From assembly GCA_015956445.1 (NCBI GenBank), contig WIUZ02000004.1:2356001-2420000 (forward strand): DNA of 64,000 bases, in the 5' to 3' direction. This document shows positions 6,453 through 55,671 of this stretch, one piece after another. Origin of the DNA: Thelephora terrestris (Eukaryota > Basidiomycota > Agaricomycetes > Thelephorales > Thelephoraceae). The notes beneath the pieces are model-generated. The model did not search any database, was not told the DNA's origin, and saw nothing but the letters and a program-made list of their open reading frames with translations. Position 1 is the stretch's first letter; every line of letters starts with the position of its first letter. A program made the translations under genes and the position numbers.

Positions 6453-9400
6453 ATGGGATTGCGAGAGTTCCTCCGTCTACCGAAAGGCCTTCGTCGAAAG
6501 AAAGGCAAAGCAACGAGTGAGATTGGCCCCACCGGGCCCGGGGGCACTGGCAAAGTTGATCTGTCCTTTACCACGGAATCGGCCCCTGATCTTCAGATCG
6601 GTGACTCAACTTCGACAACGCCAGGCCCCTCTGGTGCCGGCGGTCAGCAATCCAACGGTATGCAGACAACTTCTCCCCGGATCAACCAACTGACCGCTCT
6701 TTTTTGCTCACGAAGACCAACCTTCCGCCCCCGATCAATCCCGATTGGTTTTCAGTGAAACGCAAAGTGCACCCGCAGAACCCTCGAATACCACCATCAA
6801 AACAAGTGCGGGGGATGAGAAAAAATCGGATTGGAAGTCCATCGCAGCTTCTACGGCCAAATTGCTCCTTCTTGGGGTCAGAGACTCCGCGGATGCCTTT
6901 CCTCCGCTCAAGTCCGTAGCGGCAGGGCTCTGCTTTATCCTCGAAAATTGCGAGGTACGAACCTCGTTCTGTGTTTGTCTGCAATGCTCACAGATAGCAT
7001 CAGAGAACCAAGGCAAATAAGCAAGCAATAGAATCACTGGCGCCCCGGATTCATGCACTTGTTGATTTACTCTGCGCACCTGTTCCCAAGGGTGACGCTA
7101 AGGAGCAATCAAGGAGAGATGATCTCGAAAAGTGAGACGATACCCTCCGATATCAGGTACCGACTTTAATGTGTGGAACACTAGGAAATTGCAACCGATT
7201 CGTCAAGACGTGGACCTGATGGTGAAACAAGGAAACATTGAAGGTTTTTTCTGCAATATTGACAATGCAGAGAGGCTTAGCGGACTGGTTGAGGACATCC
7301 GCGATGCAATGGTGGATTATCAGGTATGCATCAATGATACATCTATAGCACCTCTGACATTTGCTTCAGACTTTGTTGCAACAAGACGTCTACAACAAGA
7401 GTTGCGAGCTTATTGTGAGCCTCACCTTCTCAGTTTACATCCTTTGGGTACTGAGCAATGAATAGGAATCTGCGGACCTTGCCCTTCTTGACAGGATGTA
7501 TCACACTCCAGATGCTGGGTACCGCTTTGGCAACAGGCAGGGGTGTTTGAGGGGAACAAGGCAGGATGTCCTTGGAGAAATCGAACATTGGTTCACAAAC
7601 AAACAAGACCAACGTGTTTTCTGGCTGAACGGCCTGGCCGGAACTGGAAAATCTACCATTGCACAAACATTTGCCGAAACAAGTTTTGCGGATGGAAAGC
7701 TTGGGGCGAGCTTCTTCTGTTCACGAGACTTTGTGGACCGGAGCAATCTCCAGATGATCTTCCCGACCCTTGCATTCCAGCTTGCCTACAGCTATCCCCA
7801 TTTTTGTCAGCACTTGCTACGGGTCTTGAAGGCAACACCCCATGTTGGACAGGAGTCCCTCTGCTCACAGATGGAGAAGCTCATTGTTGGTCCCCTCAAG
7901 GCTGCCTCCATCTCAACCCTTATCATCATTGATGCCCTTGACGAGTGCAAGGATAAAGAACCTGCATCTGCCATCCTTTCCATGCTCTCCCGCTACACTG
8001 ACAAAATCCCCAATGTCAAATTCTTCATCACTGGACGTCCTGAACCCCCCATCCGCTCTGGGTTCCGTCTCAAACCACTCCGCCCTATTACAGAAGTCCT
8101 CAGGCTCCATGATGTAGAACGATCATCTGTTGATGCAGATATCAAACTATATCTCAGGACTCAGCTGGCCAAGATTGCTGAGACAAGGAGTGACTGTGAC
8201 TTGACAGAGAAATGGCCGAGCTCAGATGACCTTGATGTTCTCTGCAAGAAAGCTGCCCGCCTGTTCATCTATGCCTCAACAGTTGTCAAATTTGTTGAAT
8301 CCCCAAGGCACCCTCCCACTCAGAGGCTTACCCTCATCATCTCCCTCCCACAGAATACTTCCCAGGAAGGAAAGTCAGGTGTTGATCTCCTCTACACCCA
8401 AGTCCTGGATCAAGCCTCCCATGGTATAGATCCAAGTGAGGAGGAGTTCTATTCTGGTTTCAGGACTGTCCTTGGAACAGTGGTGTTGGTGCTCAACCCT
8501 CTCTCAGTGAGGGCACTTTCAGACCTCCTCCAAATGTCCAACATCCCTACTACCCTCCGCTCCCTCCACTCCCTCCTCCTTGTGCCCGACCCAGAGAAAA
8601 CAGCAGACCCAGAGAAGAAAGCAGACCCAGTTCAAGCCTTTCACAAGTCATTTCCTGACTTCATCACAGATGCCAGCCGGTGTAGGGATGAAAGGTTTTT
8701 TGTGGAGCCAAAGGTTCATCATGCAGAGATTTTGTTGTCATGCCTGAGGTTGATGAAGGAAAGGTTGAAGAAGAGAAACATCTGTGACCTTGAGGACCAT
8801 ATTGTTCTTAGTGAGGTGAAGAACCTTTCCACTCAAAAAAGCAATAACATTGGAGATGCACTGGAATATGCCTGCCAGTTTTGGACAAAGCACCTTCTGG
8901 AGATCCCTGGAAGCAGCCCCCATGCCAAGGAAATAGCAGAGGCAATAGATGAATTCTCTACAACCACCTTGTTGTATTGGATTGAAGTCCTTGTGCTTAC
9001 AGGAAAACTTGGTGTTGGAGTTTATGCCCTGAATGATGTTGAGCAATGGTGTGCTTTGGTGAGTGCTATTGAAACCATCTACTGAAAGCCATACTGATGG
9101 TCCTTTAGGCAGGAATTGAGTGCAAGTGGACAAATGACACCCAACGCTTCCTGTTGGAATACTTTGATATCATCCACAACTCTCCTTCTCAGATATACCA
9201 TTATGCCCTCCCATTTTCTCCTGCCTCATCATGGCTTCAAAAGTGCCACGGTGCAGAGCTCTCAAATGTAGTCAAGGTGGTCAGGGGAGCTCCAATTGGG
9301 TGGGGAACATGTTCTCGAACTGTTGCTTTTGTTAGTAACCCACGGTCTATCTCGCACTGGAACAACACTGTTGCAGTTGGCCTAGCATCTGGGGATATCA

Positions 9401-10932
9401 TTATCTTGGATGCAGTTACTGGCAGCCAAACTGCTGTTCTTTCTGGTCACACTGATTGGGTTGGAACTTCCACCTTCTCATCAGATGGGATGTTTTTTGT
9501 CTCTGGAAGTTATGACAAGACTGTCAAACTCTGGGATGTGCAAACCGGTGGAGTCATCAAGACATTTAATGGTCACAAAGATTATGTCATATCTGTTTCC
9601 ATCTCAAAAAACTCTGCTATGATTGCCTCAGGGGATAGTTTGGGAACAATCTTCTTGTGGAACAATCAGACAGGGGAACACACCTGTATCATTGAGCAAG
9701 AATATAGTATAAAATATGTCACCTTCTCTCCAACAACCCCCCAACACCTCATATCTGTATCAGGAGGCAATATCTGGCAGTGGGACATCAATGGCCATCA
9801 AATTGGCCCAGCATATGATGGTTCTTGCATCGCATTCTCCCCAGATGGTGTTCAATCTGTTTTGTGCAATGGAGATGCAGTCACAGTCCAACACTCTGAT
9901 ACTAGAGTGACTGTAGCTGAATTCTCTGTGGCTGGTGGAGACATTGAAAGATGCTGTTTCTCCTCTGACAGCAGGCTTGTTGCAGTTGCTACTAGAGATG
10001 CCATCTATGTTTGGAATACTACCAGCCGAGATTCTCATCCCATTGAGCAATTCACCACACCATCTGGTATTCAGGGCATTGTGTTCTGTTCTCCCTCCAC
10101 TCTGATCTCAGCATCTGAGGATCGATCAGTCAGGTTTTGGCAGATTGGTGTTCCACAAACAGACCAAGTTGTCTCTGATCAAAAGTCCACTCCACCTCCT
10201 TCAGCTCCAATCAGGTCTATCAGTCTGAACCCAGGGAATGGAATTGTTATCTCAAGTGACAATGTTGGGGTAGTAAAGACCTGGGATATCTTGACTGGCC
10301 TCTGCAAAGCATCCTTCCAGACCCCAGCTGGTAATAACTTGAGAGACGTCCAGCTGACAGATGGGAAGCTAATCATGGTTTGGCATGAGAGTGGGAAGAT
10401 TCACATCTGGGACACTGAGAAAGCTGAACTCCTCCAAACAGTAGAGGTCCCACAGTGCCAGAGCCTCAGGATATCAGGGGATGGGTCAAAGGTTCTTTGT
10501 CTGAGTGATCGCACTGTCATTGAAGTGTGGTCAATATGGACAGGAGAGGGCATGGGCAAAGTTGAGTTGGAAGAGTGGGCATATGGAAATCTCTTCTATT
10601 TGGATGGCTCAAAAATCTGGATTGAGCTTAGAAACTCTTCTGTCCAAGGGTGGGACTTTGGAATCTCAGGCTCCTCCCCAGCCCCACTGCCCAACACACC
10701 CATAGAGGAATCTTGTCTGCAATTCACCAGAAATCCCCCTCAGATCACAAACAAAATCACTGGAAAAGTGGTTTTCCAACTGTTTGGGAGGTATGCAGAA
10801 CCTGAGGTGGCACAGTGGGATGGACAATATCTGGTTGCTGGCTATGAAACTGGAGAAGTTTTAATTTTGGATTTCTGTCATCTGTATCCTCAGAAAGAAT
10901 CTATTGTGTATTGTCTCTGTGACTGGAGGTAG
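6453..10932 (+). CDS. N1: NLR-like STAND receptor (MLKL/HeLo-like helical N-domain, NACHT, WD40)
   Basis: Probable intracellular signalling receptor of the fungal NLR class. Exons are 6453-6657, 6716-6954, 7004-7131, 7185-7323, 7370-7414, 7466-9058 and 9109-10932. All phases join, giving 1390 aa. Residues 1-70 are basic then Pro/Ser-rich. Residues about 95-250 are helical (LLLLGVRDSADAFPPLKS, ENCE, ANKQAIESLAPRI, GLVEDIRDAM) and resemble MLKL_NTD/HeLo-like four-helix bundles known in basidiomycete NLRs. The NACHT Walker A GLAGTGKST is at 308-316 and Walker B TLIIIDALDEC near 403-413. A helical linker follows. WD40 repeats run from about residue 870 to the end (LSGHTDWV, SYDKTVKLWDV). In the family, ligand sensing by WD40 drives NACHT oligomerisation and activates the N-domain; here that is inferred. 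It is open throughout, unlike its neighbours. Confidence 0.88.
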
Positions 10933-11155
10933 TAGCTTTGTCTTCCTCTCTGGTATGAATGTGTTTTAGATAGGAAGGGGTGCAAATGCAATGTGGTCTT
11001 ACCATCATCTTTTTCAGTCTGGGAAAGACTAAATAAAACAGAAGGTTAGTCTTATCACAGCCAGCTAAATTTATCACATCAGGCAAAGGGTAAGATAGCT
11101 GAGATGTGGCACCCCCAACTACATTCCATTCCACCCCAGCTTGACAAGCTGATGA
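10933..11155 (+). other. N1 3' region with probable polyadenylation signal
   Basis: This non-coding stretch directly follows the receptor stop. AATAAA lies in the CTAAATAAAACAG stretch near 11030. The same sequence follows N2 (39236-39450) and N3 (55672-55885), so it is part of the receptor's 3' UTR or 3' flank. In this copy it is cut off by the element that starts at 11156. Confidence 0.5.
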
Positions 11156-11175
11156 TGTCAGGGTTGGAGGCCTGC

Positions 11176-11799
11176 TTACTGTTTGTGGGGCGCTAGAGGA
11201 TTAGCGGATGGGTGAGGGGTATCGGGTCTGGTTTTGAAGGGGGTTCCGGGCGTGGAGACGAGGGGAGGAGGGATGTCAAGAGAGAGGGGTGACTCGGTTT
11301 GGTAGGGATGAACGGGTGAGTGGTAGTCTTGGCAAAACTGGCTGAGTTGCTGAACAAACGGTTCGAAGTCTTGGTCGCTAAGACGTTCGAAGTTGACGAG
11401 ATATTCTATAACAGAGTAAGGCAGTTCAGTTGGGATTTCCCACCAAAGAACGATGATAGCAGGGGAATGGGTATGGATGTTAGTCGTGAGATGAACACGT
11501 GGAGAAGGGAAGTAAAAGGCCGGACTGATACTGAAGTAGACTGTCGCAAGGACGCTCTCAGTAAGATCTGAATTCCAAAGGAATTGATGATCCGCTCCTA
11601 ATAGAAAGGGAGGAGTAGTGACTCCGGCGTCGAGGGCTGCAAAGGGTCGGTAGTAGGGGAAATGGGTAAGTAGACCGGCGGTTCGGTTTACTTGAAGACT
11701 CCTGATGAGTTTATACTCCCAGATAGATCTTCTAGCGTCAGGGACAACTGGTCGCTGGACTGGGCTAGTAGAGGGGAAAGGATTAGGGGCGCTGAACAT
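11176..11799 (-). CDS. Unknown 207-aa protein inside the 2.3-kb element
   Basis: I do not recognise this protein. It is a single open frame of 207 aa starting MFSAPNPFPSTSPVQRPV. It has an aromatic-rich middle (FYFPSPRVHLTTNIHTHS, IIVLWWEIPTELPYSVIEYL) and a Pro/Ser/Thr-rich tail. No catalytic or membrane motif is evident. A TATATA-type box lies on the minus strand at about 11945-11950, some 150 bases upstream of the start, which fits real transcription. The ORF ends close to the left terminus of the element, so it is probably element-encoded. A chance open frame is the main alternative. Confidence 0.5.
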   Translation of the reverse strand: MFSAPNPFPSTSPVQRPVVPDARRSIWEYKLIRSLQVNRTAGLLTHFPYYRPFAALDAGVTTPPFLLGADHQFLWNSDLTESVLATVYFSISPAFYFPSPRVHLTTNIHTHSPAIIVLWWEIPTELPYSVIEYLVNFERLSDQDFEPFVQQLSQFCQDYHSPVHPYQTESPLSLDIPPPLVSTPGTPFKTRPDTPHPSANPLAPHKQ

Positions 11800-12120
11800 A
11801 CACTAGCGGGAGGATTCCTGCTGAGATGGGTCAGAAGAGGTAAGGCGTGAGGAGAATTCCTCAGCTTACTTTTATTCAGGTTGTGGGTAGAGGAGTACAG
11901 AAGAGATTGAGAATGGGGAAAAGAAGGAGCGACCGCTCTTCCTTATATACCCAATCCTCTACAGGAGTCATTATTCTATGACGAGTCAAACAGGAGTAAA
12001 CATGGTCTGTGCGTAGTTTAGGGTAGGGTAGGTGAGTCAGAATGAGGGGACTTAGAACGACGGATGGTAATTACAATTACGGAAACAGTAGAGGCGTGAG
12101 TTGATGGAAGCATTCGGGGA

Positions 12121-12250
12121 TTTCTCGTGTTTCATGGTAGTAATAGAAGCGCGGTGGGGATTTCCCATGATCGATGGGGATTTCTCTGGATCAACGGTTG
12201 TAATAGAAGCGTGGTGGGGATTTCCCATGATCGATGGGGATTTCTCAGGG
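12121..12250. repeat. 60-bp tandem repeat in the element's divergent promoter
   Basis: Two 60-base units (12121-12180 and 12181-12240) and the start of a third repeat a GGTGGGGATTTCCCATGATC core followed by GATGGGGATTTCTC. They lie between the two divergent ORFs of the element and could be protein-binding sites for a shared promoter. Confidence 0.75.
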
Positions 12251-12454
12251 TTTGATGGGGTCGCGATCGGGGTTGAGGGTTCGTTTATCCTAATAAGGAC
12301 GTTAATGAATAATAGGTTATTGTTTTCCCCCTTTGGTTTTCTTTGAGTCAGGATGTATTTAAGTCGGGGGGATTAATGATCGTTCCCCTCATCGTCTCTT
12401 TTCCGTTCCCACAATTACCACTACCACCCTCTTCGTCAAACATCTATCACCACT

Positions 12455-13358
12455 ATGTCTGCTTTTACTGCCAACAACGTCGTCCTCAACGCTGCTGCCG
12501 TCCCCTTCACTCCGTCCTTTGAGACGGACGCTCCTTACAACATGGAGCAGCACTTGTATGATTCCCCCGCCAATATTGCCCACGACAACCAGGTTGCCGT
12601 TGACTTCCTCACCGCTCATAATGCCCCCGCCGAATTCTGGGAACAAGCTGGGTACGAAGACCCCAGGCTTTCTGGGCCTGTGGTTCGAGCTCAACACCCT
12701 GGAGCCGTCCTTTTATTGGACGCCATGGAGAGGGAGAGGGAGGATCGAATTGCGAAGTTGGAGAAGCGGGTGGATCTCATGTACGTCATCATGAACAGTC
12801 TGAATGATGACTTCTCTCACTTCGCTTTGGAACATTGGGGACCTTTCCAGGCGTCTCTCTTCCGATATTTCGGACACCAATGTGGGGGAGCTTATTGCAC
12901 CGACCCCCCTTGCAAGTCCCCAGTCGTCCCTTCGCCACCGCCAGGATCGGGGCGTTCCTCTCCCTCCATCCCCTCCCTGGAGTCCTGCCCCAGCTCGCCA
13001 GATGGTGGAGAGGTCCCAGAAGAAGAAGAACCGCAAGAGTCCGATGACTCGTTCTGGTCAACGTTGTCGTCCCTCCGACAAGTCACGTCAGGTGAGGATG
13101 AAGTTGAAGGTGGAGGTGGCGGGTCTCCAAGACCGCTATGGGTTCGCATTAGTGAGCGAGGCCTTGTCGGACGTGCGACGGGAGATGTATGATAGTCTCT
13201 CCCATGATGTGTTGGGGTGTAGGGAGTGTTGGCAGGATCCGGCGACGCGAGTGTGGTCTTACTGTCCCGAGAGTATCCATAACCCTCACCACTTTGCTCA
13301 TCGTTGCCCCCTCCCTCAGAACTGTTCATGTGATATCGACCCGTTTGTTCTTGTCTAA
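12455..13358 (+). CDS. Unknown protein inside the 2.3-kb element, two frames needed
   Basis: I do not recognise this gene. The start at 12455 opens MSAFTANNVVLNAAAVPF and runs 245 aa to 13192. It includes an acidic helical part (LLLDAMEREREDRIAKLEKR) and a Pro/Ser/acidic linker. A second frame, open to 13358, then looks coding from about 13085: GFALVSEALSDVRREMYDSL, then a Cys/His-rich end with CRECW, NPHHFAHRC and CSCD. The two parts probably belong to one protein joined by an unseen intron or broken by a frameshift near 13080-13100. A TATTTAA box near 12355 and a CT-rich leader precede the ATG. I give the joined span without choosing the joint. Confidence 0.45.
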
Positions 13359-13468
13359 GTTTGTAGTCTTTTTTAGCCACTTTTGTACTATTATTACCGC
13401 GAATGAGACCAATGTCTTGAATTATTTGTGAGATCTTGGCTACTATGTCACGCGTTCGTGACAGATGA

Positions 13469-14045
13469 TATGTATCTTGATATCTATCAACCCTTATGGC
13501 ACCCCTGGCGACCCTCCCAGGTACTGGCTCGAGGATCTTGGTTGTTCAATAGAGTTAACCAGATACACACACCCTGTGGACTTTGGGCTCATCCCATTGA
13601 AGACCCTCTTCAAAGGGAAGGGGAATTTTTCATCTTCATTTTTGATACAAACAGATTAATGTGTCTGAGGTGTGGATGCAGATTTCAGTAGGAACATGAA
13701 TATTCCCCTCCACCAAAGTTCATGTTGTGGATTCCAGACAGTCATTCAGAATGGTGGTTCTTCCCTAATGCACACAGCAAGGTGGGACAGATGGCAACAC
13801 AACTGGAGATTGAGGCATTTGTACAGGAAACACATTGCAGAGGAAAGTGGGCCCCACCCACCCCACCTTCATCTGGAGGAAATGTACGTGTTCACATTTG
13901 GAAACTGCATACAACACATTGAGATTCATCACCCAAAGTACATCTTATCAATAAAGAATAAGTTGCAACGGTTCAAGACTACACAAAAGGTGACCCAAGA
14001 TATTCCTCTTCAACTCCTATAATGTACAAACCACCTCCCTTGCTC
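13469..14045. repeat. Conserved ~570-bp block 3' of the receptor, copy 1
   Basis: This block follows each complete receptor: 13469-14045, about 39454-40035 and about 55890-56472. The three are almost identical in nucleotide sequence. Open frames of 66-116 codons exist in two overlapping frames (for example PKFMLWIPDSHSEWWFFPNA and LWAHPIEDPLQKEGEFFIF), but each is interrupted and none matches a family I know. It may be a decayed gene or a 3' regulatory or UTR segment carried with the receptor. Confidence 0.45.
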
Positions 14046-14431
14046 ATTGAGAATCACCAAACACACTCCTCTTTACCAACCCAGTCAGTGTAGCAAAGGC
14101 ACCGGAGATCTAGGACGAGGTGGCAACCTTAGCCTTGATGGCATCAACAACGCTGGGATCAGCCAAGGTGCTGAGGTCGCCCAGCTGGTCGCCCTCTCCT
14201 GCGGAAATCTTGCGCATGATACAGCGCATGATCTTACCAGATCGGGTCTTGGGAAGGTCAGGAACGATGATGATCTTCTTTGGCGTGGCGAATGGCCCAA
14301 TGTCCTTCCTGACCTGAAGAATGAGCTCCTTAGTGAGGGAACCCTCGTCATTGGGGTTGTAGGTGAATTCACTAGGGAAAGGGGGTTTGATGAGCTCGGA
14401 GTCTGCAAGGTTGGCAAGGAAATACATACGG

Positions 14432-16028
14432 TGTCGTGCTCGTGGGTGGTGTAGTGTTATGTTCTATACAGAAGATAACTAGACCCAGTTGGTTCGCTTA
14501 GAGACTAAGTGTATAGAAGCTAAGCAGGCTGGTTGAGTAGTCTATGAACGCGACTAACAACTCCACAGGGTGAGCGGGGTTCCTCTTTCCGGCTCTCGGA
14601 CCTGATGAGTTCGCTGAGGGATCTACTCTGTGAGTGTGTCCTTCAGTATTATTCCAAGGGAATCAGACGTACTATATCACTCAGTTGTTCCTGTTCCTTG
14701 ATTAGACACTTATCTGGTGTGTGGGGGTTTGGTGGTGATTTGATGGGAATGGAGTTCCTGATCTAAGGGGAGATCAAGAGTGGAGGGGATGATCTACTGG
14801 GGTAGACCAAAGGGGAGGGGGAAAGAGGGGGATGCTCAAAGGGTGTGTTTGAGGCTGAATTCCTAAGGCTGTGCTTTGATGCTGTGCTTTGATGCTGTGC
14901 TTAGGGCTGTGCTTAGGGCTGTGCCTAAGGCTGTGTATTGAGGCTGTGTATTGATGCTGTGCTTAGGGCTATGCCTAAGGCTGTGTTGAGGCTGTGTCGT
15001 GTGACTAGACCTAAAAGGGAAGGTGTACACTTACACCTGGGGCTGTGCTAGATATGTTGTAAAGGTGACAAGATATGTCGTAAAACTGGGAGGGTATAAC
15101 TGATACCCTAAACTTTGCTGCAGATGACGTCTAGTACGTCTAACTGATATGTCTTCAATAATCTTCAGATAATAAACCTATGTCGTAAAATATGTCGTAA
15201 GTCCTTGTGGTACTGCTAAATCTGGCTGTCACTCAGTCAGTCACTTCTCTGAGGTGGGGTTATCTGCCTAAAGTTTCAGACTTTAGTACTACAGATACCA
15301 AGATTCCAACGTCTCAAGTGTACTAAGCTTATTCAGTTCTTCTGACTTAGAACTTCTTCTCACAGAGGGTAGGGCTAAAATATGGTATGTGATTGCTCAA
15401 ATCACTCAACCAATCAGTCCTAAGGGAATTGAGGTAGATACTTTAGGGGGTAGATGTAGAGAGAGAGGGGGTAGATGTAAAGTGGGGGGGGGGGGGGGGG
15501 GGGGGGGAAAGAGACACTGAGCAAAAGGATGCTCAGCTGATGTGAGGATAGAGCAAACTGTGCTTTTCTCCTGAGCAGTAGGTACCTCTTCTTCTCTTAG
15601 AAGTGGGGTTGAGGTCTATATATACTATTTTACACAAGAATGTTCTAGAACATTCCAGCACCTTCCACAGTATTCCGTAAGATTCCACCATGTTCCATTA
15701 GTTTCCGTCTTGTTCTTTGTGTGACAAATCATCACATTTGTGACATTCCGTCACCTTCTAGAATGTTCCAGCACTTTCCAGCATGTTCCAGCATGTTCCG
15801 GGAGATTCCATGATATTCCATGGTTTTCATGGCTATCTGATCTCTTGATCTAATCTTCAGGGTCCTTATCTTATCTTATCTATAATGGATTATAATTAGA
15901 TTTCTGTTATCTAATCTTATCTGGATTAAACAATATTTAAATCATTTAAATAATCCATTGACCAGTCTGTTAAGTATAAATTGTGCGTAAAATCGTAAAA
16001 TAAATAATGATAATCCTGGGGTCCGACA
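14432..16028. mobile_element. 1.6-kb non-coding LTR-like (solo LTR) insertion
   Basis: The uninterrupted site in A2 and A3 reads ATACGGCTTGAGGG. Here the same sequence is split by an insert starting TGTCGTGCTCGTGGG and ending GGGGTCCGACA. ACGG is duplicated on both sides (14428-14431, 16029-16032); a fifth base differs (T/A). TGTCG...CGACA ends, a TATATATA box near 15617-15626, purine-rich and TTCCA-rich blocks and absence of any long ORF fit a long solo LTR. Inner short repeats include GGCTGTG units (14865-15000) and TTCCAGCA-type units (15640-15820). Confidence 0.65.
15484..15507 (+). repeat. Homopolymer of 24 G
   Basis: An uninterrupted run of 24 guanines inside the 1.6-kb LTR-like element. 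Runs of this size are unstable in replication and in sequencing, so the length is approximate. Confidence 0.9.
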
Positions 16029-17952
16029 ACGGCTTGAGGGTCACAAAGGCGTAGACGGTTTGGCCAGTGAGATCGTCGGAGACGCCGATGACGGCAGTCT
16101 CAGTGACGCCCCTGTGAAGGATCAAGGCAGACTCGATCTCGGCAGTGGAGAGGCGGTGTCCCGAGACGTTGATGACATCTGAGTTCTGTTAGGCTCGCGC
16201 TCGTGAAGCGAGAGACGTTCGGGATACTGACCGTCTACACGACCCTTGATCCAAATGTATCTGTGCTCATCGCAGCCCACACCATCGCCGGTATAGAAAA
16301 ATCCTGGGTATGGCTAAACACGACGAGATCAGAGATAGCGTCGCACACAACGCAAATGAACGCAAACCCTCATATAGGTATCGAGATAACGGTTATTATC
16401 CTTCCAGACCGTACTCGCGATAGACGGCCAGGGGTTCCTGATACACAGGATACCCTCAACACTGTTGCCCTCGAGGACTTCTCAGGACACTGGGTCGAGG
16501 ATGACCGGCTCGATGCCGAAGAAAGGTACGGTAGCGGATCCCGGTTTTGTCTCGATGGCGCCAGGGAATGGCGTTATCATGATCGAAACGGTCTCGGTTT
16601 GCCACCAAGTGTCGACAATGGCACATTGCTTCTTTCCGACGTGCTCATTGTACCAGTCCCAAGCTTCAGGGTTGATAGGTTCACCGACGCTACCCAGCAC
16701 TCAAACCGTGCTGAGGTCGTGGGCTTGGGTGTGGTGTTCGCCGGGACGACGGAGGAGACAGATGGCGGTGGGAGCAGTGTAGAAATGGGTGATCTGGTGT
16801 TTCTCGACGACCTGCCAATAACGGGATGGAGTGGGGTAGACCGGGGTAGACTCGAATACAGTGGTGGTGACGCCCTTGAGAAGAGGTCCGTAGACGATGT
16901 ACCTGATCAAGTATAAGACCAGAGCAGAGGCGGCGGTTGTCAAAAGTACCAAACTTACGTGTGGCCGGTGATCCAGTCGACATCGGCCATGCATGCAAAC
17001 TTGTCCTCGGGGTGGACATCGAAGACGTACTTGACGGTCAGCGCGGCTCCGAGAAGGTATCTGGCGGTAGTGTGGACGACAACCTTTGGCTTTCCGGTGG
17101 ATCCAGAGGTCTAAAAACGTCGAGAAGCACCGTCAGCGACTCTTGTTGGACGGAAGATAAAACTTCCGATGCTCACGTAAAGAATGAACAACGGGTCCTC
17201 AGAGGACATGACCTCCGGCGGATAGTAGTTTGGGACCTTGGGCGTCTCTTCGTGCCACCACTTGTCGCGTCTCTTGGTCCAGGCCACGGTGTTTCCGGTC
17301 CTCCTCTGGACAAGTGCATGCTCGACCTCGGGGCACACCTTAAGAGCGGCATTGACGATGGCCTTGGTAACAGTGGCCCTTCCACCCCGTCGGCCCTCAT
17401 CGGAGGTGATCAAAACGCGAGACTTGCAATCCTTGATGCAGTCTCGAAGCAACTCGGATGGCGCCGATGCGAGCGCAGGCCAGGAAAGTGGCAACAGCGT
17501 GCCAGGTCATGGGCATCTAAACGGAGACGGTGTCGCCCTGCTTGATCCCCATAGCCTTCGAGCCGTTAGCCATGCTGCAAACTCCGCGGAGGAGCTGAGT
17601 GTGGGTGATTTCGCAGCCTTCGCCTGGCCCATCGGCTTCGTAGATGATTGCGGTCTATGGAAATCTGTGAGTTCGTGACAGAATGTTGTGGAATGAAGGG
17701 GAGGGGGAATCGTGTAGAGCGACTGCGGACGCTGAGACTGTCGGCACTGGCCGACGCCAATGGTCGCTGAAGCGGAAGCGCCGATCGACTGTCGATGGGC
17801 AAGATGATGGTAGAAATGCGAACCTTATCAGGGTGGGTATAAGCCCATGAGTCGACGCAGTTGTATGAGACGTTGAGACCACCTTCGGGGAACCAGACGA
17901 TGTCTCCATTCTCGAAGCTACCAGACCGAACGGTCTTGAACGGGCTTTCCAT

Positions 17953-18560
17953 TGGTATTTAACACGAGGGGAGTTGGGTAAATTGATGTTGAGAATCAGC
18001 CGGGCGAAGGAACATAAGAGGCGTCCATGTCATCCTCAAACCGGAACCGAGAGCGGCACTGATCTGAAGATGCGAGGACTCGATTGATCCAATCCCTCTA
18101 GCATACGTCCCATTCCCTAGCAGTGGTTCTCCAATTTCTTGAATATCCGGATCCATGGACACGTCTCAGTGCATTGGAATTCCCAATACTGCGTAACCCG
18201 GATGTCTTATTCTTCGAGAGCCTGCCTATCATTGAAAGATGAAACGCGTTATTTCACCTGGTATGTTCATAAATCAATCCGCTCCACGAGTGCCGCCGCC
18301 CCTCCGTAATTCGCAGCGAATGATTGACCCAGAACCCGCTCATCAGTTTATGTGTGTGAGTTTACGACAAAGCCCTGCGGATTGAAGGAAGAAAATCGTG
18401 GCGAGTCGCTGTCCCATCTTGTCATCGAAGCTAAAAATCTCTGATTTCCTGCAGAGTGACGAGTGTGTCAAAACGCGATGTGGTTCAATCGACAGAACGT
18501 TGGGATCGATGGCGATGGCTACTAGCCTGAGGCGTTGCCCGATACCACGATCAACCCGCC
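17953..18560. repeat. Divergent A-H intergenic block
   Basis: This is the region between the 5' ends of acetyl-CoA synthetase (-) and H (+). It recurs at 42364-43010 and 58803-59450, and in altered form at 30550-31190. Shared marks are GTTGGGTAAATTGATGTTGA next to A and the GCCGCCCCTCCGTAATTCGC stretch. No gene is seen. It probably was the shared promoter of A and H. Confidence 0.5.
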
Positions 18561-18569
18561 CTCTCTCCT

Positions 18570-19455
18570 CCTCCCCTCTCAAAGTATCGTCCCGCATCCC
18601 GCGCGTTACTCATAGGTGTGGCTCCCCGCCAGACACGGAGTCCACGAATTTCACAAAACACTGTCTGACCCCCAAATCCTGTCGTGAGCTCACAGGCCAC
18701 TGGGTGAGTTGTCAACCCCATCGTTTTTCGTGCATTGGAGCTAACGTGCGCAAAAATCACGCGTCGGAACAGACTAGGCAAACGGCCTCACCAAGAATTA
18801 CGCCAACGCTACGCGCCCACATTCAACCCGGCGCATTCGAAGCCATCCCGTTTTCAGAAGATCGCTCCGTCTTGCCTGTTACACGATCTCCTTGAAGAAA
18901 CCTCACGTACAATGGTGTCCCGCCCTTAACGTTAGTTGGACGGACCTGGACAGTTCCAACTTTGACAGATGGTCAAGGGGGCAGAAGATCGCGCGGCCAC
19001 GGACGGTGGAGATTTCTCTCGCAGACGCCTCAAAATCGAGGTTCGGAAGCATAACCAACGTGCGTGATGACCAGCCCTCTGTATCTTTTCGCACACAACA
19101 CTTATCAAAGTCTCTTTTTACAGGCGATGTCTTGCGATTACGAAGGTCCACATACATTCCTCATGGCCTCTTTGTCCCACCGTTCGAACCCGAGCAGCCA
19201 TCCATCCGCAATGAGAAGTCCACGTCCAACTTCTTCTGGGACTCCGTGACTTCTGGTAACCTCGACACCTCCAGCGAGCAGGCCCGAAAGATCTCCTGCC
19301 TACACCCACGATCACGACTTGGATTGGGTCCTCAAGCTCCTCGGCAAGAAATTGTTCGGATTCCGGCACCTTTCCCTTCCACAACTCCCCTGCACGGAAC
19401 ATACGTTCAGGTCCTCGTCAATCAGGGGCGACAGGTGGAGGAACGTTGGGATTGA
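18570..19455 (+). pseudogene. H2: decayed H-family copy
   Basis: Homologous to H1 across its length, from CGGAGTCCACGAATTTCAC to the terminal GGAACGTTGGGATTGA. There is no ATG at the H1 start position (GGTGTGGCTCCC), and frames shift several times. The region matching the H1 middle exon is shortened. The acidic C-terminal exon survives as FFWDSVTSGNLDTSSEQA. It is almost identical to H10 at 59430-60314, differing by a 9-base gap near 18880 and a few substitutions. Confidence 0.7.
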
Positions 19456-34818: not shown

Positions 34819-37800
34819 ATGGGTTTGCGAGATTTCCTCGGGATACCGAAAGGCCATCGTCGAGAGCGGAGCACAGCTAGGAGCGAGATGAGCCCCACCG
34901 AGGGCACAGGAGAAGTTGATCTGGCCCCGCCAAGTCTCACGACGGAATCAACTCCAGATCTTCAGATCAATGCCTCGATTTCGACGACTCCTGGTCCCTC
35001 TGCTGCTCGCGACCAGCGATCAAACGGTATGCAAACGACCTCTTCATAAATCGTCTATCTGACCGCTCTTCTCTGCTCGGCGCAGACCGCCGTTCCATTC
35101 CCGATCGATTTCGATCCATTCTCAACAGGGGATACAACAAATTCACAAAATCCTTCAATGACACCGCATATCCCACGACCAAATTACTCCTCCGTGGTGT
35201 CAGAGACTGCGCAGATGCATTTCCTCCGCTCAAGTCCGTCGCGGGAGGGCTCTGTTTCATCCTCGAAAATTGCGAGGTACGCATCTTCCCCCGCATCTGT
35301 TATTCAGGTCGCTCAGAGACGCGCCAGAAAACAAAAGCAAATAAGCAATCAATAGAAACATTGGAGCCCCGAATCCGTGCGCTCGCTGGGTCACTCTGTG
35401 CACCTGTTCTCAAGGGTGACACCGAAGAGCAATCAAGAAGAAATGATCTCGAACGGTTAGACCATGCGCCACAGTACCAGGTGCTGGCTCCTCTGACATA
35501 CGCTCACTAGGAAATTGCGAGCTGTTAATCAAGGCCTGGACCTGATGGCAAAACAAGGGAACATCGAAGGCTTTTTTAGCAATCTCGAGAACACCGAGAG
35601 GCTTAACGGACTGGTTGAGGACATCCGCAATGCAATGTTAGATTATCAGGTATGTCTCAAAGATGCACCACTCGCACCTCTGACGTTCGCTTTAGACCTC
35701 TCTACAGCAAGATATCTATAACAAGAATTGTCAGCTTATCGTGCGCCCCACCCCTGTGCTTTTACCCCCACAGACTAATTAATGAATAGGAATCTGTGGA
35801 CCTTGTTATTCTTGACAGGATGTATCACACCCCGGATGCTGGATACCACTATGGGAACAGGCAGGGATGCTTAGGTGGAACAAGGCACGATGTCCTCAGG
35901 GAAATCGGGGATTGGTTGACAAACAAACAAGACCAACGTGTTTTCTGGTTGAACGGCCTGGCCGGGACTGGAAAATCTACCATTGCACAAACATTTGCCG
36001 AAACAAGTTTCGCAGATGGAAAGCTCGGGGCAAGCTTCTTCTGTTCACGAGACTTTGCGGACCGGAGCAATCTTCAGATGATCTTTCCGACCCTTGCATT
36101 CCAGCTTGCCTACACCTATCCCCATTTCTGTCAGCACTTTCTACAGGTCTTGAAGGCAACACCCCATGTTGGACAGGAGTCCCTCTGCTCACAGATGGAG
36201 AAGCTCATTGTTGGTCCACTCAAAGCTGCCTCTATCTCAACCCTTATCATCATTGATGCCCTTGACGAGTGCAAAGATAAAGAACCTGCATCTGCCATCC
36301 TTTCCATGCTCTCCCGCTATACAGATGAAATCCCCAATGTCAAATTCTTCATCACTGGACGTCCTGAACCCCCCATCCGCTCTGGGTTCCGTCTTAAACC
36401 ACTCCGCCCTATTACAGAAGTCCTCAGGCTCCATGATGTAGAACGATCATCTGTTGATGCAGATATCAAACTATATCTCAGGACTCAGCTGGCCAATATT
36501 GCTGAGACAAGGAGTGACTGTGACTTGATGGAGCAATGGCCAAGCTCAGATAACCTTGATGTTCTCTGCAAGAAGGCTGCTGGCCTGTTCATCTATGCCT
36601 CAACAGTTGTCAAATTTGTTTCATCTCGAAACCACACCCCCACTGAGAGGCTCACCCTCATCATCTCCCTCCCACACAATACTGCCCACGAAGGAAAGTC
36701 AGGGGTGGATCTCCTCTACACCCAGGTCCTAGAGCAAGCTTCCCACAGTGTAGACCCAAGTGATCAGGAATTCCACTCCCGATTCAAGACTGTTCTTGGA
36801 ACAGTTGTGCTAGTGTTCAACCCTCTTTCAACACGGGCGCTCTCAGACCTCCTCAAAATACCCAACATCTCCACCACCCTCCATACTCTCCACTCTCTCC
36901 TCCTCATACCAGGCCCAGGGAAGACAGATGACCCAATTCAAGCATTTCACAAGTCATTTCCTGACTTTCTCACAGATACCAACAGGTGTGAGGGGAAGTG
37001 GTTTTTTGTGGAGCCAAAGGTCCATCATGCAGAGATTTTGCTGTCCTGCCTGAGGTTGATGAAGGAAAGGTTGAAGAGAAACATTTGTGACCTTGAACAC
37101 CACATTGTTCTTAGTGAGGTGGAGAACCTTTCCACCCTAAAAAACAATAACATTGGAGATGCTTTGGAATATGCCTGCCACTTTTGGACAAAGCACCTTC
37201 TGGAAATCCCTGGAAGCAGCCCCCATGCCAAGGAAATAGCAGAGGCAATAAATGAATTCTCTACAACCAGCTTGTTGTATTGGATTGAAGTCCTTGTGGT
37301 TACAGGAAAACTTGGTGTGGGAGTTTATGCCATGAATGATGTTGAGCAATGGTGTGCTTTGGTGAGTGCTACTGAAATCATCTATTGAAAGCCATGCTGA
37401 TGGTCCTTCAGGCAAGAATTGAGTGCAAGTGGACAAATGACACCCAACGCTTCCTGTTGGAATACTTTGATGACATCCACAACTCTCTTTCTCAGATATA
37501 CGATTATGCCCTCCCATTTTCTCCTCCCTCATCATGGCTTCAAAAGTGCTATGGTGCAGAATTATTGAATGTAGTCAAGGTGGTCAAGGGAGCTCTACTT
37601 GGGTGGGGAACATGTTCTCGAACTGTTGCTCTTGGCAGTGACCCATGGTCTATCTCGCACTGGAACAACACTGTTGCAGTTGGCTTGGAATCTGGTGATA
37701 TCATCATCCTGGATGCAGTTACGGGCAGCCAAACTGCTATCCTTTCTGGTCATACTGATCGGGTTAGAGCTTCCACCTTCTCATCAGATGGGATGTTTTT

Positions 37801-39235
37801 TATCTCTGGAAGTGATGACAAGACTGTCAAACTCTGGGATGTGCAAACTGGTGGAGTCATCAAGACATTTCATGGTCACAAACGCTGGGTCATGTCTGTT
37901 TCCATCTCAAAAAACTCTGCTATGATTGCCTCAGGGGGTCCTCGGGAAACAATCTTCTTGTGGAATCTTCAGACAGGGGAACACATCTGTACCATTGAGC
38001 AAGCAAAGTGGATAAAGTATATTGCCTTCTCTCCAACAAACCCCCAACACCTCATATCTGTATCATGGGACAAGGTCAGGGAGTGGGACATGAATGGCCA
38101 TCAGATTGGCTCAGCATATGATGGTTCTTGCATTGCTTTCTCCCCAGATGGTATTCAATCTGTTTTGTGCAATGGAGATACAGTTACAGTTCAACAATCT
38201 GATACTAGAGTGACTGTAGCTGAATTCCATGTGGCTGGTGGAAACATTGAAAGATGCTGTTTCTCCCCTGACAGCAGGCTTGTTGCAGTTGCTACTAAGT
38301 ATACCATCTATGTCAGGGATACCAGCCCATATTCTCACCCCATAGAGCAATTCACCACACCATCTGGTATTCAGGGCATTGTGTTCTGTTCTCCCTCCAC
38401 TCTAATCTCAGCATCTTTTGATCGATCAGTCAGGTTTTGGCAGATTGGTGTTTCACAAACAGACCAAGTTGTCCCTGATCAAAAGTTCACTCTACCTACT
38501 TCAGCTTGGATCAATTCTATCAGTCTGAACCCAGGGAATGGGATTGTGATCTCAAGTGATGATGATGGGGTAGTCAAGACCTGGGACATCTTGACTGGCC
38601 TCTGCAAAGCATCCTTCCAGACCCCAGCTGTTAATCGCTTGGGAGATGTCCAGCTGACAGATGGGAAGCTAATCATGGTTTGGCATGAGAGTGGGAAGAT
38701 TCACATCTGGGACACTGAGAAAGCTGAACTCCTCCAAACAGTAGAGGTCCCAAAGTGCAAGAGCCTCAGGATATCAGGGGATGGGTCAAAGGTTCTTTGT
38801 CTGAGTGATCACACTGTCATTGAAGTGTGGTCAATATGGACAGCAGAGGGCATGGGCAAAGTTGAGTTGGAAGAGGGGGCACATGGAGATTTCTTCTATT
38901 TGGATGGCTCAAAAATCTGGATTAAACTCATTGACTCTTCAATCCAAGGGTGGGACTTTGGAATCTCAGGCTCCTCCCCAGCCCCACTGCCCAACACACC
39001 CATAGAGAAATCTTGTCTGCAATTCACCAGAAATCCCCCTCAGATTACAAACAAAATCACTGGAGAAGTGGCTTTCCAACTGTTTGGGAGGTATGCAGAA
39101 CCTAGGGTGGCACAGTGGGATGGACAATATCTGGTTGCTGGCTATAGAACTGGAGAGGTTTTGATTCTTGATTTCTGCCATCTGTATCCTCAGAAAGAAT
39201 CTATAGTTTATTGTCTCTGTGACCAGAGTTGGTAG
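34819..39235 (+). CDS. N2: NLR-like STAND receptor (helical N-domain, NACHT, WD40)
   Basis: Paralogue of N1. Exons are 34819-35026, 35086-35276, 35328-35455, 35511-35649, 35696-35740, 35790-37361 and 37412-39235. Exons 3, 4 and 5 have exactly the same lengths as in N1 (128, 139 and 45), which supports the model. The product is 1368 aa. Exon 2 is shorter and differs strongly in its first half (RSILNRGYNKFTKSFND), but the LRGVRDCADAFPPLKS block is kept. Walker A GLAGTGKST lies near 293-301, and Walker B IIIDALDEC about 95 residues later. WD40 repeats fill the last exon. Against N1 the propeller differs at clustered residues (HKRWV for HKDYV, SFDRS for SEDRS). A fungal NLR role in non-self recognition or cell death is inferred. 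Confidence 0.88.
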
Positions 39236-50974: not shown

Positions 50975-53900
50975 ATGGGATTGCGAGATCGTCTCCGTCG
51001 ATTAAAAGACCGTCATCGAGAACGAAACAGGGCAAGGAACGAGACAGGTCCCATCGGGGAGCCAAGCGAAGTTGAACCCGTCGCGCCGCGCTCCACAGGG
51101 GAGCCAGCACCAGATCTCCGCATCGGCGACCCGAACCAACCGACTCCTGGGCCCTCGGCCTCTCGCACTCCGTATCCCAACGGTACGCAGCCATTTAGTC
51201 ACAAAAAGATCCATCTAATCGTACTTTTTCGCGCGACGCAGATTCCCCCTCCGCTTTTACTCAATCCCTGCCTGATTCTAGCGAAAAACAAACCACGGTC
51301 GCGCCACGTCTCGCCGATCCAGCACCAGATCCGTACATTGTTGCCCCGACTCTACAAACAATCGAGCCCTCGGCCTCTCACGATCAGAAATCCAACGGTA
51401 TGCGGCCATTCGCTTCCCAGAACATCCGTCTAATCGTATTTCTTCGCTCTACCCAGATATCCCTTCCACTTCCATTGCATCCCAGCCTGATTCCGGCGAA
51501 AAACAAGGCGCACACACAGGACCCCCGAATCCCCCTATAGAATCGCCTGCGGTAGATGCTAACAAGGACACCGGGAAGCTCAAGTCCCTCGCGTATTCCG
51601 TAGCCAAGACAATCCTCCTTGGGGTCAGAGAGTCCGCAGATGCATTTGGTCCACTCAAGTCTGTCGCCGGAGGTCTCTGTTTTATATTGGACAATTACGA
51701 GGTACAGTCCTTCTCCCGCACTCGCGATCCCCAACGCTTAGAGTTGCACCAGCGAACGAAGGCAAACCAACAGTCAATAGAATCGTTGGCACCCCGGGTC
51801 CAGGAAGTTGCTCAGTTGGTCTACGCGCCTGTTTCTCCGAGTGATACCGACGAACAATTGAGGAGAGGCGTTCTGGAAGGGTAAGTCCATATCCTTCGAT
51901 ATTAGGCAACGACTCTGACATATGAATCCCTAGCAAATTGCACGCCATTGATCAAGATCTACACGGACTGATGGAGCAAGGAAAGGTCGAAGGTTTTTTC
52001 AGCAATGTCGAGAACACCGATAAAATTCGTGGACTGGTTGAGGACATCCGTGATGCGATGATTCAATATCAAGTTTGTTTTTGGCAATACCCGCACTTCC
52101 CAGCACCTCTGATGTCCGCTTCAGACTTCATTACAGCAAGGTCTCTACAACAAGAGTTGCCAGCTTATTGTAAGGCCCGCTTCCCTACTCCTGATCCTCA
52201 CATGTTGATTGTTGGATAGGAATCCGTGGACCTCACCCTTCTCAATGGGATGTATCACGCTTTGGGCGCTGGCTACAGCAGCGGCAACAGGCAGGGGTGC
52301 CTGAGGGGAACGAGGCAGGATGTACTTGGAGAGGTTCAACGCTGGTTGACAGACAAGCAGGATAAACATGTGTTCTGGCTGAACGGCCTGGCCGGAACCG
52401 GAAAGTCCACTCTCGCTCAAACATTTGCTGAAACAAGCTTTGCCGATGGAAAACTTGGGGCAAGCTTCTTCTGCTCGCGGGATTTTGCGGAACGGAGTAA
52501 CCTTCAGACAATCTTTCCAACTCTTGCATTCCAGCTTGCCTACAAGTATCCCTCTTTTCGTGGGAAGTTGTTGGATGTCTTGAAAGCAATCCCAGATGTT
52601 GGACAGGAGTCCCTCTGCTCCCAGATGGAGAAACTCATCATCGGACCATTCAAAGCCTCCCCCACTGTCTCAACCCTCATCATCATTGACGCCCTTGACG
52701 AGTGCAAGGACAAAGAACCTGCATCTGCCATCCTTTCCATCCTCTCGCGCTACACCAAGGAAATCCCCAATGTCAAATTTTTCATCACCGGACGTCCTGA
52801 ACCACCCATCCGCTCTGGGTTCCGTCTCAAACCACTCCGCCCTATCACAGAAGTGCTCAGGCTCCATGATGTAGAGCGATCATCTGTTGATGCAGATATC
52901 AAACTATATCTCAGGACTCAGCTGGCCAAGATTGTTGGGGCAAGGAGTGACTGTGACTTGACAGAGCAATGGCCAGGCCCAGACGATCTCAATGTCCTCT
53001 GTGAGAAGGCTGCTGGCCTATTCATCTATGCCTCAACAGTTGTCAAATTTGTTGAATCCCCCAAACACCTTCCCACTCAGAGGCTTTCCCTCATCATCTC
53101 CCTCCCACAAAATACTTTGCAGGAAGGAAAGTTAGGTGTTGATGTCCTCTACTCCCAAGTCCTGGATCAAGCCTCCCATGGTATAGATCCAAGTGAGGAG
53201 GATTTCTATTCTGGTTTAAGGACTGTCCTTGGAACAGTGGTGCTGGTGTTCAACCCTCTCTCAGTTAGGGCACTTTCAGACCTTCTCCCAATGTCCAAAA
53301 TCCCTACCACCCTCCGCCCCCTCCACTCCCTCCTCCTTGTGCCAGAAGCAGAGAAGACAGCAGACCCAGTTCAAGCCTTTCACAAGTCGTTTCCCGACTT
53401 CCTCACAGATGCCAGCCGGTGCAGGGATGAAAGGTTTTTTGTGGAGCCAAAGAGTCATCATGCAGAGATTTTGCTGTCATGCCTGAGGTTGATGAAAGAA
53501 AGGTTGAAGAGAAACATTTGTGACCTTGAACACCACATTGTTATTAGTGAGGTGGAGAAGCTTTCCACCCCAAAAAACAATAAAATTGGAGATGCTCTAG
53601 AATATGCCTGCCAGTTTTGGACAAAGCACCTTCTGGAGATCCCTGGAAGCAACCCCCATGCCAAGGAAATAGCAGAGGCAATAGATGAATTCTCTACAAC
53701 AAACTTGTTGTATTGGATTGAAGTCCTAGCGCTTACAGGAAAACTTGGTGTTGGAGTTTATGCCATGAATGATGTTGAGCAATGGTGTGCTTTGGTGAGT
53801 GCCATTCAAACCATCTACTGAAAGCCATACCAATGGTCCTTTAGGCAAGAATTGAGTCCAAGTGGACAAATGACACCCAACGCTTCCTGTTGGAATACTT

Positions 53901-55671
53901 TGATATCATCCACAACTCTCCTTCTCAGATATACCATTATGCCCTCCCATTTTCTCCTCCCTCATCATGGCTTCAAAAGTGCTATGGTGCAGAATTCTTG
54001 AATGTAGTCAAGGTGGTCAAGGGAGCTCTACTTGGGTGGGGAACATGTTCTCGAACTGTTGCTCTTGGCGATGGCCCACAGTCTATCTCGCACTGGAACA
54101 ACACTGTTGCAGTTGGCCTGTCATCTGGGGATATCATCATCTTGGATGCAGTTACTGGCAGCCAAACTGCTGTCCTTTCTGGTCACACTGATTGGGTTAG
54201 AGCTTCCACCTTCTCATCAGATGGGATGTTTTTTATTTCTGGAAGTGATGACAAGACTGTCAAACTCTGGGATGTGCAAACTGGTGGAGTCATCAAGACA
54301 TATGATGGTCACAAATCTGATGTCATGTCTGTTTCCATCTCAAAAAACTCTGCTATGATTGCCTCAGGGGATCGTTTGGGAACAATCTTCTTGTGGAACA
54401 ATCAGACAGGGGAACACACCTGTACCATTGAGCAAGCACAGAGGATAGACTATGTCACCTTCTCTCCAACAACCCCCCAACACCTCATATCTGTATCAGG
54501 ACGCAAGATCTGGCAGTGGGACATCAATGGCCATCAAATTGGCCCAGCATATGATGGTTCTTGCATCGCATTCTCCCCAGATGGTGTTCAATCTGTTTTG
54601 TGCAATGGAGATGCAGTCACAGTCCAACACTCTGATACTAGAGTGACTGTAGCTGAATTCTCTGTGGCTGCTGGAGTCATTACAAAATGCTGTTTCTCCT
54701 CTGACAGCAGGCTTGTTGCAGTTGCTGCTTGGCATATGATCTATGTCTGGGATACTACCAGCCCAGATTCTCACCCCATTGAGCAATTCACCACACCATC
54801 TAATATTCAGGGCATTGTGTTCTGTTCTCCCTCCACTCTGATCTCAGCATCTTGGGATGCATCAGTCAGGTTTTGGCAGATTGGTGTTCCACAAACAGAC
54901 CAAGTTGTCTCTGATCAAAAGTCCACTCCACCTACTTCAGCTCCAATCAGGTCTATTAGTCTGAACCCAGGGAATGGAATTGTTATCTCAAGTGACAGAG
55001 ATGGGGTAGTAAAGACCTGGGATATCTTGACTGGCCTCTGCAAAGCAACCTTCCAGACCCCAGCTGGTGATAACTTGAGAGATGTCCAGCTGACAGATGG
55101 GAAGCTAATCATGGTTTGGCATGAGAGTGGGAAGATTCACATCTGGGAAACTGAGAAAGCTGAACTCCTCCAAACAGTAGAGGTCCCAGAGTGCAACAGC
55201 CTCAGGATATCAGGGGATGGGTCAAAGGTTCTTTGTCTGAGTGATCGCACTGTCATTGAAGTGTGGTCAATATGGACAGGAGAGGGCATGGGCAAGGTTG
55301 AGTTGGAAGATTGGGCATATGGAGATTTCTTCTATTTGGATGGCTCAAAAATCTGGATTGAACTCAGTGGCTCTTCCATCCAAGGGTGGGACTTTGGAAT
55401 CTCAGGTTCCTCTCCAGCCCCACTGCCCAACACACCCATAGAGGAATCTTGTCTGCAATTCACCAATGATCCCCCTATGATTACAAACAAAATCACTGGA
55501 AAAGTGGTTTTCCAACTGTTTGGGAGGTATGCAGCACCTTTGGTGGCACAGTGGGATGGACAATATCTGGTTGCTGGCTATGAAACTGGAGAGGTTTTGA
55601 TTTTGGATTTCTGTCATCTGTATCCTCAGAGAAAATCTATAGTGTATTGTAAATGTGACTGGCGTAGATAG
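50975..55671 (+). CDS. N3: NLR-like STAND receptor with an extra linker exon
   Basis: Paralogue of N1 and N2 with eight exons: 50975-51182, 51242-51397, 51457-51701, 51753-51880, 51934-52072, 52125-52169, 52220-53794 and 53845-55671. The product is 1440 aa. Exons 4-6 match N1 in length (128, 139, 45). The second exon (156 bases, 52 codons) is extra and comes from a 215-base tandem duplication including its intron. The helical N-domain keeps ILLGVRESADAFGPLKSV and GLVEDIRDAM. Walker A GLAGTGKST is near 363-371; IIIDALDEC follows. The WD40 exon is very close to N1 except at variable sites (HKSDV, SWDAS, DRDGV). Role inferred as for N1. No GTPase copy is found upstream. Confidence 0.88.
51150..51456 (+). 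repeat. 215-bp tandem duplication in N3
   Basis: The exon end around GCCCTCGGCCTCTC, the donor, the intron (CATCTAATCGTA...TTCGC) and the acceptor with the following ATTCCCYTCC occur twice, offset by 215 bases (donors 51183 and 51398; exon starts 51242 and 51457). The copy is spliced in phase and lengthens the Pro/Ser-rich linker by 52 residues. Confidence 0.75.

Follow-up and report, generated by a model that had tools for sequence, protein, structure and literature searches.

We analysed a 64,000-nt window of contig WIUZ02000004.1 from Thelephora terrestris (genome 40.6 Mb, 60 contigs). Its genes N1, N2 and N3 are, judged from their sequence, three NACHT-WD40 genes of the fungal NOD-like receptor (NLR; STAND) type, in which the WD40 exons would be the sensors. 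Among 17 copies of this exon in the genome, about 60 propeller codons were under strong positive diversifying selection, whereas the NACHT stretch was not. The family very probably has a largely conserved double-propeller scaffold whose top faces bind a variable partner, are specific to each copy and have been diversified under positive selection.

In the mechanism that we propose, an N-terminal region would be followed by a NACHT switch and by a C-terminal double WD40 propeller serving as sensor; by homology, the protein is assigned to the STAND switches with a propeller sensor. Just over half of the roughly 60 selected codons are predicted to lie in the d-a and b-c loops, which form the tops of both propellers, and others at adjoining strand ends. 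The top faces would bind a variable protein partner, either a non-self or pathogen protein or a guarded polymorphic host protein; binding would release the NACHT switch, and each copy would have a different specificity. Variants would be made by point mutation and selection, exchange between loci would probably keep the scaffold similar and mix segments, and shuffling of repeat units inside one gene is unlikely.

Positive selection in the WD40 exon

The N1 WD40 exon was compared with its own genome (72 of 226 candidates scored), which revealed 17 full-length intact WD40 exons at least 70% identical to N1 (N1 and 16 others at 70–92%); the next members were at 60% and below. The main analysis covered these 17 loci (L004–L020) of one genome and one strain, some of which may be alleles of two haplotypes. 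Ten further members, grouped by similarity (L023–L027 and L029–L033), served as a cross-check, and the fragments L021, L022 and L028 and 42 matches without a fetched locus stood outside the analysis. Computed for all 136 pairwise combinations of these exons, whole-exon dN/dS ranged from 0.36 to 1.06 (median 0.69) and exceeded 1 in 5 pairs.

Codon-based site models, which the sequence-only reading of this stretch had proposed, were run on these paralogues with purpose-written code in place of PAML or HyPhy (GY94-type models on FastTree trees with fixed relative branch lengths; a FUBAR-type site grid with a floor on dN and fine interpolation), retaining 608 of 615 alignment columns. The WD40 exon showed an M0 omega of 0.89, and the likelihood-ratio statistic (LRT) for M7 against M8 was 878 with one tree, 719 with six trees and 522 with twelve trees. 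The class with omega above 1 held 9–12% of codons at an omega of 4.7–6.7. A posterior above 0.9 was reached by 71 (one tree), 46 (six) and 73 (twelve) codons among the 608; the 60 codons common to the one-tree and twelve-tree runs are called selected hereafter, and 59 of them have an N1 residue. As a control, we used the last 481–482 codons of the NACHT exon, a stretch set by the 1500 flanking bases with which loci were fetched, in 15 of the 17 loci (L018 and L019 dropped). This control gave omega values of 0.33 and 0.32, LRTs of 0.06 and 0, and no selected codon among 475.

Recombination or gene conversion forced onto one tree can produce a false signal of selection, and there are signs of exchange here: none of 15 loci kept one nearest neighbour over all five segments, to which a star-like tree contributes, and significant identical tracts occurred in 5 of 136 pairs. 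We therefore consider this artefact together with null simulations (16 data sets evolved along the twelve trees, which differ from one another, with dS allowed to vary and omega never above 1). The nulls raised the one-tree LRT to 127–253 with 1–48 false sites; with twelve trees they gave LRTs of 12–74 and 0–1 false sites, and 0–1 codons appeared in both runs. Since the observed LRTs of 878 and 522 were far above these nulls, and 60 codons rather than 0–1 were shared, the shared list is robust. No signal came from the NACHT control, which covers 15 of these loci, and false positives would have no reason to prefer one face of a propeller. An origin of the signal in recombination is thus extremely improbable.

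Replacements changing the chemical class made up 80% at selected codons and 58% at background codons. Up to 10 residues occurred at one position across the 17 copies, and any two copies differed at no fewer than 28 of the 60 selected codons.

The sequence-only reading had started from N1, N2 and N3, and all seven motif triplets that it quoted (HKDYV/HKRWV/HKSDV and so on) were recovered in the aligned sequences. Across 606 shared columns, 493 were identical, 92 had two residues and 21 had three, where an even spread over a star tree would give about 8 columns changed in at least two tips; all but one of the 21 columns with three residues were codons called selected in the 17-locus set, which includes N1, N2 and N3. 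The clustering of differences therefore stood. The claim that the copies differ almost only at these clusters did not, as the background differs too: mean pairwise codon difference was 14% at 459 background codons and 69% at the 60 selected ones (15 loci; 89 grey codons are in neither class). Instead of one cluster per blade, as had been estimated, most blades have two, one covering the d-a loop and the first part of strand a, the other in the b-c loop. Diversifying selection as in the HET-E family was borne out, with dN/dS at the sites well above 1 alongside the NACHT control and the recombinant nulls.

Ten more distant members, none used for finding sites, varied at the same places as the 17 loci. 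Group B comprised five members 57–60% identical to N1, and group C five members at 47–54%. Columns with at least four residues were found at 19 of 58 selected versus 16 of 547 other positions in group B, and at 22 of 55 versus 32 of 532 in group C. The M7/M8 LRT was 167 for group B and 68 for group C, and sites with their own posterior above 0.9 fell on sites of the 17 loci in 7 of 9 cases and 5 of 5 cases, respectively. In five pairs within these groups the ratio of amino-acid-changing to silent differences (pN/pS) was 1.45–2.1 at selected codons versus 0.38–0.85 elsewhere.

Placement of the selected codons on the propellers

The following N1 features, all on the plus strand, are given in window coordinates.

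9109..10932, +: WD40 exon, 607 aa, two beta-propellers (Pfam WD40; AlphaFold)
9310..10143, +: propeller 1, residues 68–345, hypervariable top loops; seven blades by strand assignment
10192..10929, +: propeller 2, residues 362–607, hypervariable top loops; about six blades, number uncertain
9457..9465, +: hotspot pair, codons 117 and 119, the R1-2 and R1 positions of blade 2 (site models, blade anchors)
9580..9585, +: codons 158–159, HKDYV/HKRWV/HKSDV; posterior above 0.97 with one tree and with twelve trees
10117..10125, +: codons 337 and 339 around a conserved Asp, SEDRS/SFDRS/SWDAS, b-c turn; posterior at least 0.999
10453..10461, +: codons 449 and 451, PQCQS/PKCKS/PECNS (site models; recovered in group B too)

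Across the 17 loci, 9 different residues occurred at codon 337 and 6 at codon 339. The last residues of the exon (606–607 and beyond; window 10924–10932) are hypervariable as well, and the stop position shifts among copies.

AlphaFold, run on a 27-member family alignment, predicted two propellers (whole exon: pLDDT 79.6, pTM 0.51, the relative placement of the two being unreliable); propeller 2 modelled alone reached a pLDDT of 89.8 and a pTM of 0.86. When the variable sites were mapped on this model, top loops were favoured. By strand topology of residues 68–527, 31 of 85 residues in the top (d-a and b-c) loops were selected, compared with 3 of 99 in the bottom (a-b and c-d) loops (Fisher P 3e-9). 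Strands had 12 selected residues among 254, of which 8 were at the top end or beside it, and an unassigned link had 1 among 22. The contrast was significant in each propeller (propeller 1, 19/52 top vs 3/64 bottom; propeller 2, 14/50 vs 0/38, with its degenerate blade 5 counted only in part) and was stable over posterior thresholds from 0.5 to 0.97. A model-free count of columns with at least five residues gave 32 of 85 in top loops and 1 of 99 in bottom loops, and the mean number of residues per column was 3.8 and 1.7, respectively. The diversification of one face that had been expected from the sequence was thus observed, and scatter over all faces was not. As also read earlier, the propellers lie in a single exon and are not built from high-identity internal repeats: the 12 blades of N1 are at most 33% identical to each other (median 20%), which makes HET-E-like repeat shuffling within one gene unlikely.

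These contrasts bear on relaxed constraint, under which surface loops would tolerate change without positive selection. Many sites do lie in loops, and the background codons are not frozen, given their 14% difference per pair. Relaxation would, however, bring omega to about 1 rather than to the 4.7–6.7 of the site class, and it would leave unexplained the low variability of the bottom loops of the same propellers and the favouring of class-changing replacements; we regard it as highly improbable.

WD40 proteins bind partners through three top-face positions per blade, R1-2, R1 and D-1, according to the portion of the source available (PMC3419727). Placed on the 12 blades, 26 of these 36 positions were selected, compared with 33 of 571 other residues (P 2e-21). 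On sliding the frame from -8 to +8, the count of 26 was found at zero only, and the next best were 11 (-2) and 12 (+2), secondary peaks to be expected when sites are spaced by two. The R1 and D-1 anchors of degenerate blades were set after the selected sites were known, and the seven clean blades alone gave 16 of 21. In ten of the anchored blades at least one of R1-2, R1 and D-1 is selected. The two exceptions are blade 5 of propeller 1 (residues 237–254) and blade 2 of propeller 2 (residues 410–427), which may contact a constant part.

That top faces of WD40 propellers bind partners generally (the same excerpt of PMC3419727) would equally suit fixed cellular partners that differ among paralogues, i.e., subfunctionalisation in place of non-self recognition. 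Up to 10 residues per position and at least 28 of 60 differences per pair are more than such a division of labour seems to need, and the architecture is that of Podospora NLRs engaged in non-self recognition. We consider fixed partners unlikely.

Foldseek comparison of the WD40 exon model gave 2ymu, a highly repetitive propeller, as first match, and Apaf-1 as second to fifth (3j2t, 3sfz and 5juy twice). Propeller 2 returned general WD40 matches, the first being an eight-bladed designed propeller, with TM-scores of at most 0.58 and root-mean-square deviations mostly of 7–11, so the blade number stays uncertain. A viral structure library searched with propeller 2 added nothing.

Several observations weigh against recognition of a variable partner by the top faces, or against the full receptor model built on it. 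The one-tree site list is unreliable if taken alone, with its 1–48 false sites in nulls. Of the 59 selected codons, 12 lie outside residues 68–527 (5 of these precede residue 68, where the model is poor), and within this region 12 lie in strands and 3 in bottom loops (codons 186, 248 and 307). Two of the copies, L018 and L019, are truncated or interrupted: their WD40 exons are intact, their NACHT homology is limited to 202 (L018) and 231 (L019) residues at the C-terminal end of the stretch, beyond which the upstream bases do not match the NACHT of N1. For an effector, the N-terminal pieces of N1 matched no Pfam family at E ≤ 1 and those of N3 gave one sub-threshold match; against the PDB, the N-terminal pieces gave only chance-level matches and no structural relative. 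Finally, the results do not separate non-self recognition from other diversifying contacts.

NPHP3_N matches lie about 14 kb (L018) and 11 kb (L019) upstream on the same strand, and large insertions could account for them. The HET domain had no match in the three N-terminal pieces, whose 5' exon models are incomplete. Our guess for the effector is a helical bundle of the BaMLKL type, a class described in the accessible part of PMC9815663.

Probable exchange and mutation among the copies

The copies look mosaic, and some exchange between loci has probably taken place. Mantel correlations between segments (r 0.34–0.91, P 0.001–0.055; 0.82–0.91 within the WD40 exon) speak against free exchange, and may be driven by the distant member L020. 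Silent divergence in 15 loci was greatest where the NACHT stretch begins (0.41) and fell to 0.05–0.20 in the WD40 exon, and similarity faded within about 500 bases beyond the stop. Of 105 pairs, 93 had less silent divergence in WD40 than in NACHT. This profile is consistent with exchange focused on the WD40 exon; copies duplicated at different times, or a constraint on codons, could also have produced it, the latter in view of a GC content at third codon positions of 0.44 versus 0.52 in the WD40/NACHT comparison.

The following pairwise silent differences (pS), background-run tallies and four-fold-site test cover 15 of the 17 loci (all but L019 and L020). In 28 runs of at least 80 codons without a background difference, 138 of 272 selected codons differed all the same; the selected codons were almost all identical in two of the longest of these runs, as expected from recent conversion. 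Pairwise pS was 0.18 at selected codons, 0.14–0.15 at a distance of 1–2 codons and 0.07–0.12 further away. Three-base changes accounted for 12% of differing codon pairs at selected codons versus 2%. Differences in background-identical runs, frequent three-base changes and a pS raised at and near selected codons are what a mutational process aimed at these codons (hypermutation, RIP-like or template-driven, with selection secondary) would also leave. However, the four-fold-site excess beside selected codons was only 1.33-fold and was matched by 61 of 598 rotations, so that silent-site hot spots, tried as a candidate, were not significant in the rotation test. RIP (repeat-induced point mutation) predicts transitions, and selected codons have fewer (48% vs 69%). 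Conserved residues stand directly between hypervariable ones, and an omega of about 6 roughly explains the relative rates. We see no need for a targeted mutator, which we judge very unlikely, and point mutation with selection remains the preferred source of variants.

We suggest, with more doubt than conviction, that exchange between loci keeps the propeller exons alike while the binding residues of both tops stay different, giving a germline repertoire of variable receptors on one scaffold. If this is true, homogenising the scaffold while sparing or re-diversifying its face would offer a route to receptor diversity distinct from HET-E repeat shuffling.

Comparison with known systems

Plant and animal NLR repertoires also consist of many copies with a diversified recognition face; their sensors are in the main leucine-rich repeats, whereas those of Thelephora are WD40 propellers. 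For Apaf-1, the Foldseek likeness to the WD40 exon model reached TM-scores of only 0.40–0.41, and we know of no hypervariable face on this protein. The text accessible from PMC12881547 draws a parallel between WD40 NLRs of fungi and Apaf-1, which binds cytochrome c.

The closest comparison is with the HNWD/NWD genes of Podospora anserina (HET-E, HET-D, HET-R). Both systems join NACHT to a WD40 sensor, with selected d-a and b-c positions on the propeller top; in the HNWD genes, as far as the excerpted report goes, positive selection acts on codons of the d-a loop and the b-c turn that come in pairs, with a conserved codon between the two members of a pair (PMC1805685). An AlphaFold 3 model of 2025, described in the available section of PMC12222747, shows HET-C clamped by two propellers at hypervariable sites, with weak scores. 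The HNWD repeat arrays are up to 100% identical and are exchanged within and between genes, in the parts of these sources at hand, whereas the Thelephora blades are unlike and diversified copy by copy; N1 lacks the highly identical internal WD40 repeats that define HNWD genes. Further marks of the HNWD family are a HET domain at the N-terminus and the triggering of incompatibility with HET-C, a polymorphic partner. Elsewhere among fungal NLRs, the ANK and TPR sensors (and earlier WD sensors) are under positive selection, with ANK and TPR sites on the binding face; the selection tests used highly conserved internal repeats, a type to which 21.6% of WD repeats belong (PMC4986451, passages available). 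The Thelephora family falls in the remainder outside this 21.6%.

Titles and abstract beginnings among the open-access matches listed held no report of positive selection in non-repetitive WD40 sensors of basidiomycete NLRs. In the excerpts of earlier work, selection on fungal NLR sensors concerned near-identical internal repeats, with specificity changed by repeat exchange. The same kind of loop position is selected here in propellers of unlike blades, and the common element is therefore the selected surface, not the repeat mechanism. Furthermore, because most of the scaffold does not vary from copy to copy, nature has supplied a mutational series; exchanging the roughly 60 known residues between two members should exchange their specificities as well, and the question of what they recognise would become directly testable.

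Gene architecture and genomic surroundings

The remaining parts of N1 and the exons of N2 and N3 are as follows.

6453..7465, +: N1 5' exons, several and short, tentative start MGLREF..., limits tentative (frame translations)
7466..9058, +: N1 NACHT exon (Pfam NPHP3_N E 1e-28, NACHT 2.5e-8)
9059..9108, +: N1 predicted intron of 50 nt between NACHT and WD40, GTGAGT...TAG (sequence ends)
35790..37364, +: N2 NACHT exon (Pfam)
37415..39235, +: N2 WD40 exon, L015 (genome search, Pfam, alignment)
52220..53794, +: N3 NACHT exon (Pfam)
53845..55671, +: N3 WD40 exon, L010 (genome search, Pfam, alignment)

NPHP3_N and NACHT exceeded the Pfam cut-offs in all three genes, whose layout is identical. In 17 of 17 loci the WD40 repeats lay C-terminal of NACHT in the same predicted gene, across an intron-like gap of 49–50 nt with matching donor and acceptor, as read from the bases alone. 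The NPHP3_N profile exceeded its cut-off at 150 places of the genome; it also matched in 9 of 14 control prokaryote genomes, so these places are not a pure count of NLRs.

A subtelomeric location of the family was considered and rejected: for 15 of the 17 loci the nearest contig end is at most 200 kb away, yet the terminal 600 bases of six contig ends held no telomere array (TTAGGG 0, CCCTAA at most 1). Two contig ends share their first and last 60 bases, and contig breaks at repeats therefore explain the proximity to ends equally well. These are the ends of contigs C6 and C25 (L035 and L039), whose terminal 600 bases start and finish with the same 60 bases, near the fragmentary copies L021 and L022. 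The assembly probably breaks in a terminal repeat of C6 and C25, and C25 may overlap C6 or be a second haplotype.

Within the window, three large units of segmental duplication (6853–25468, 35175–50075 and 51613–64000) each contain an NLR and then further stretches. Between the N1 unit and the others, identity was 88–89% in the NLR stretches and 96–98% in the stretches beyond. On the minus strand after each NLR lie stretches that, by eye, we take to resemble acetyl-CoA synthetase. Within this stretch, unit 1 carries about 1.6 kb (14432–16025) absent from units 2 and 3, so its acetyl-CoA-synthetase-like copy appears interrupted. An NLR-like 5' end at 29049–29456 may be a remnant, and another at 62627–63001 (KIGVRDFLGIPK...) runs towards the window edge.

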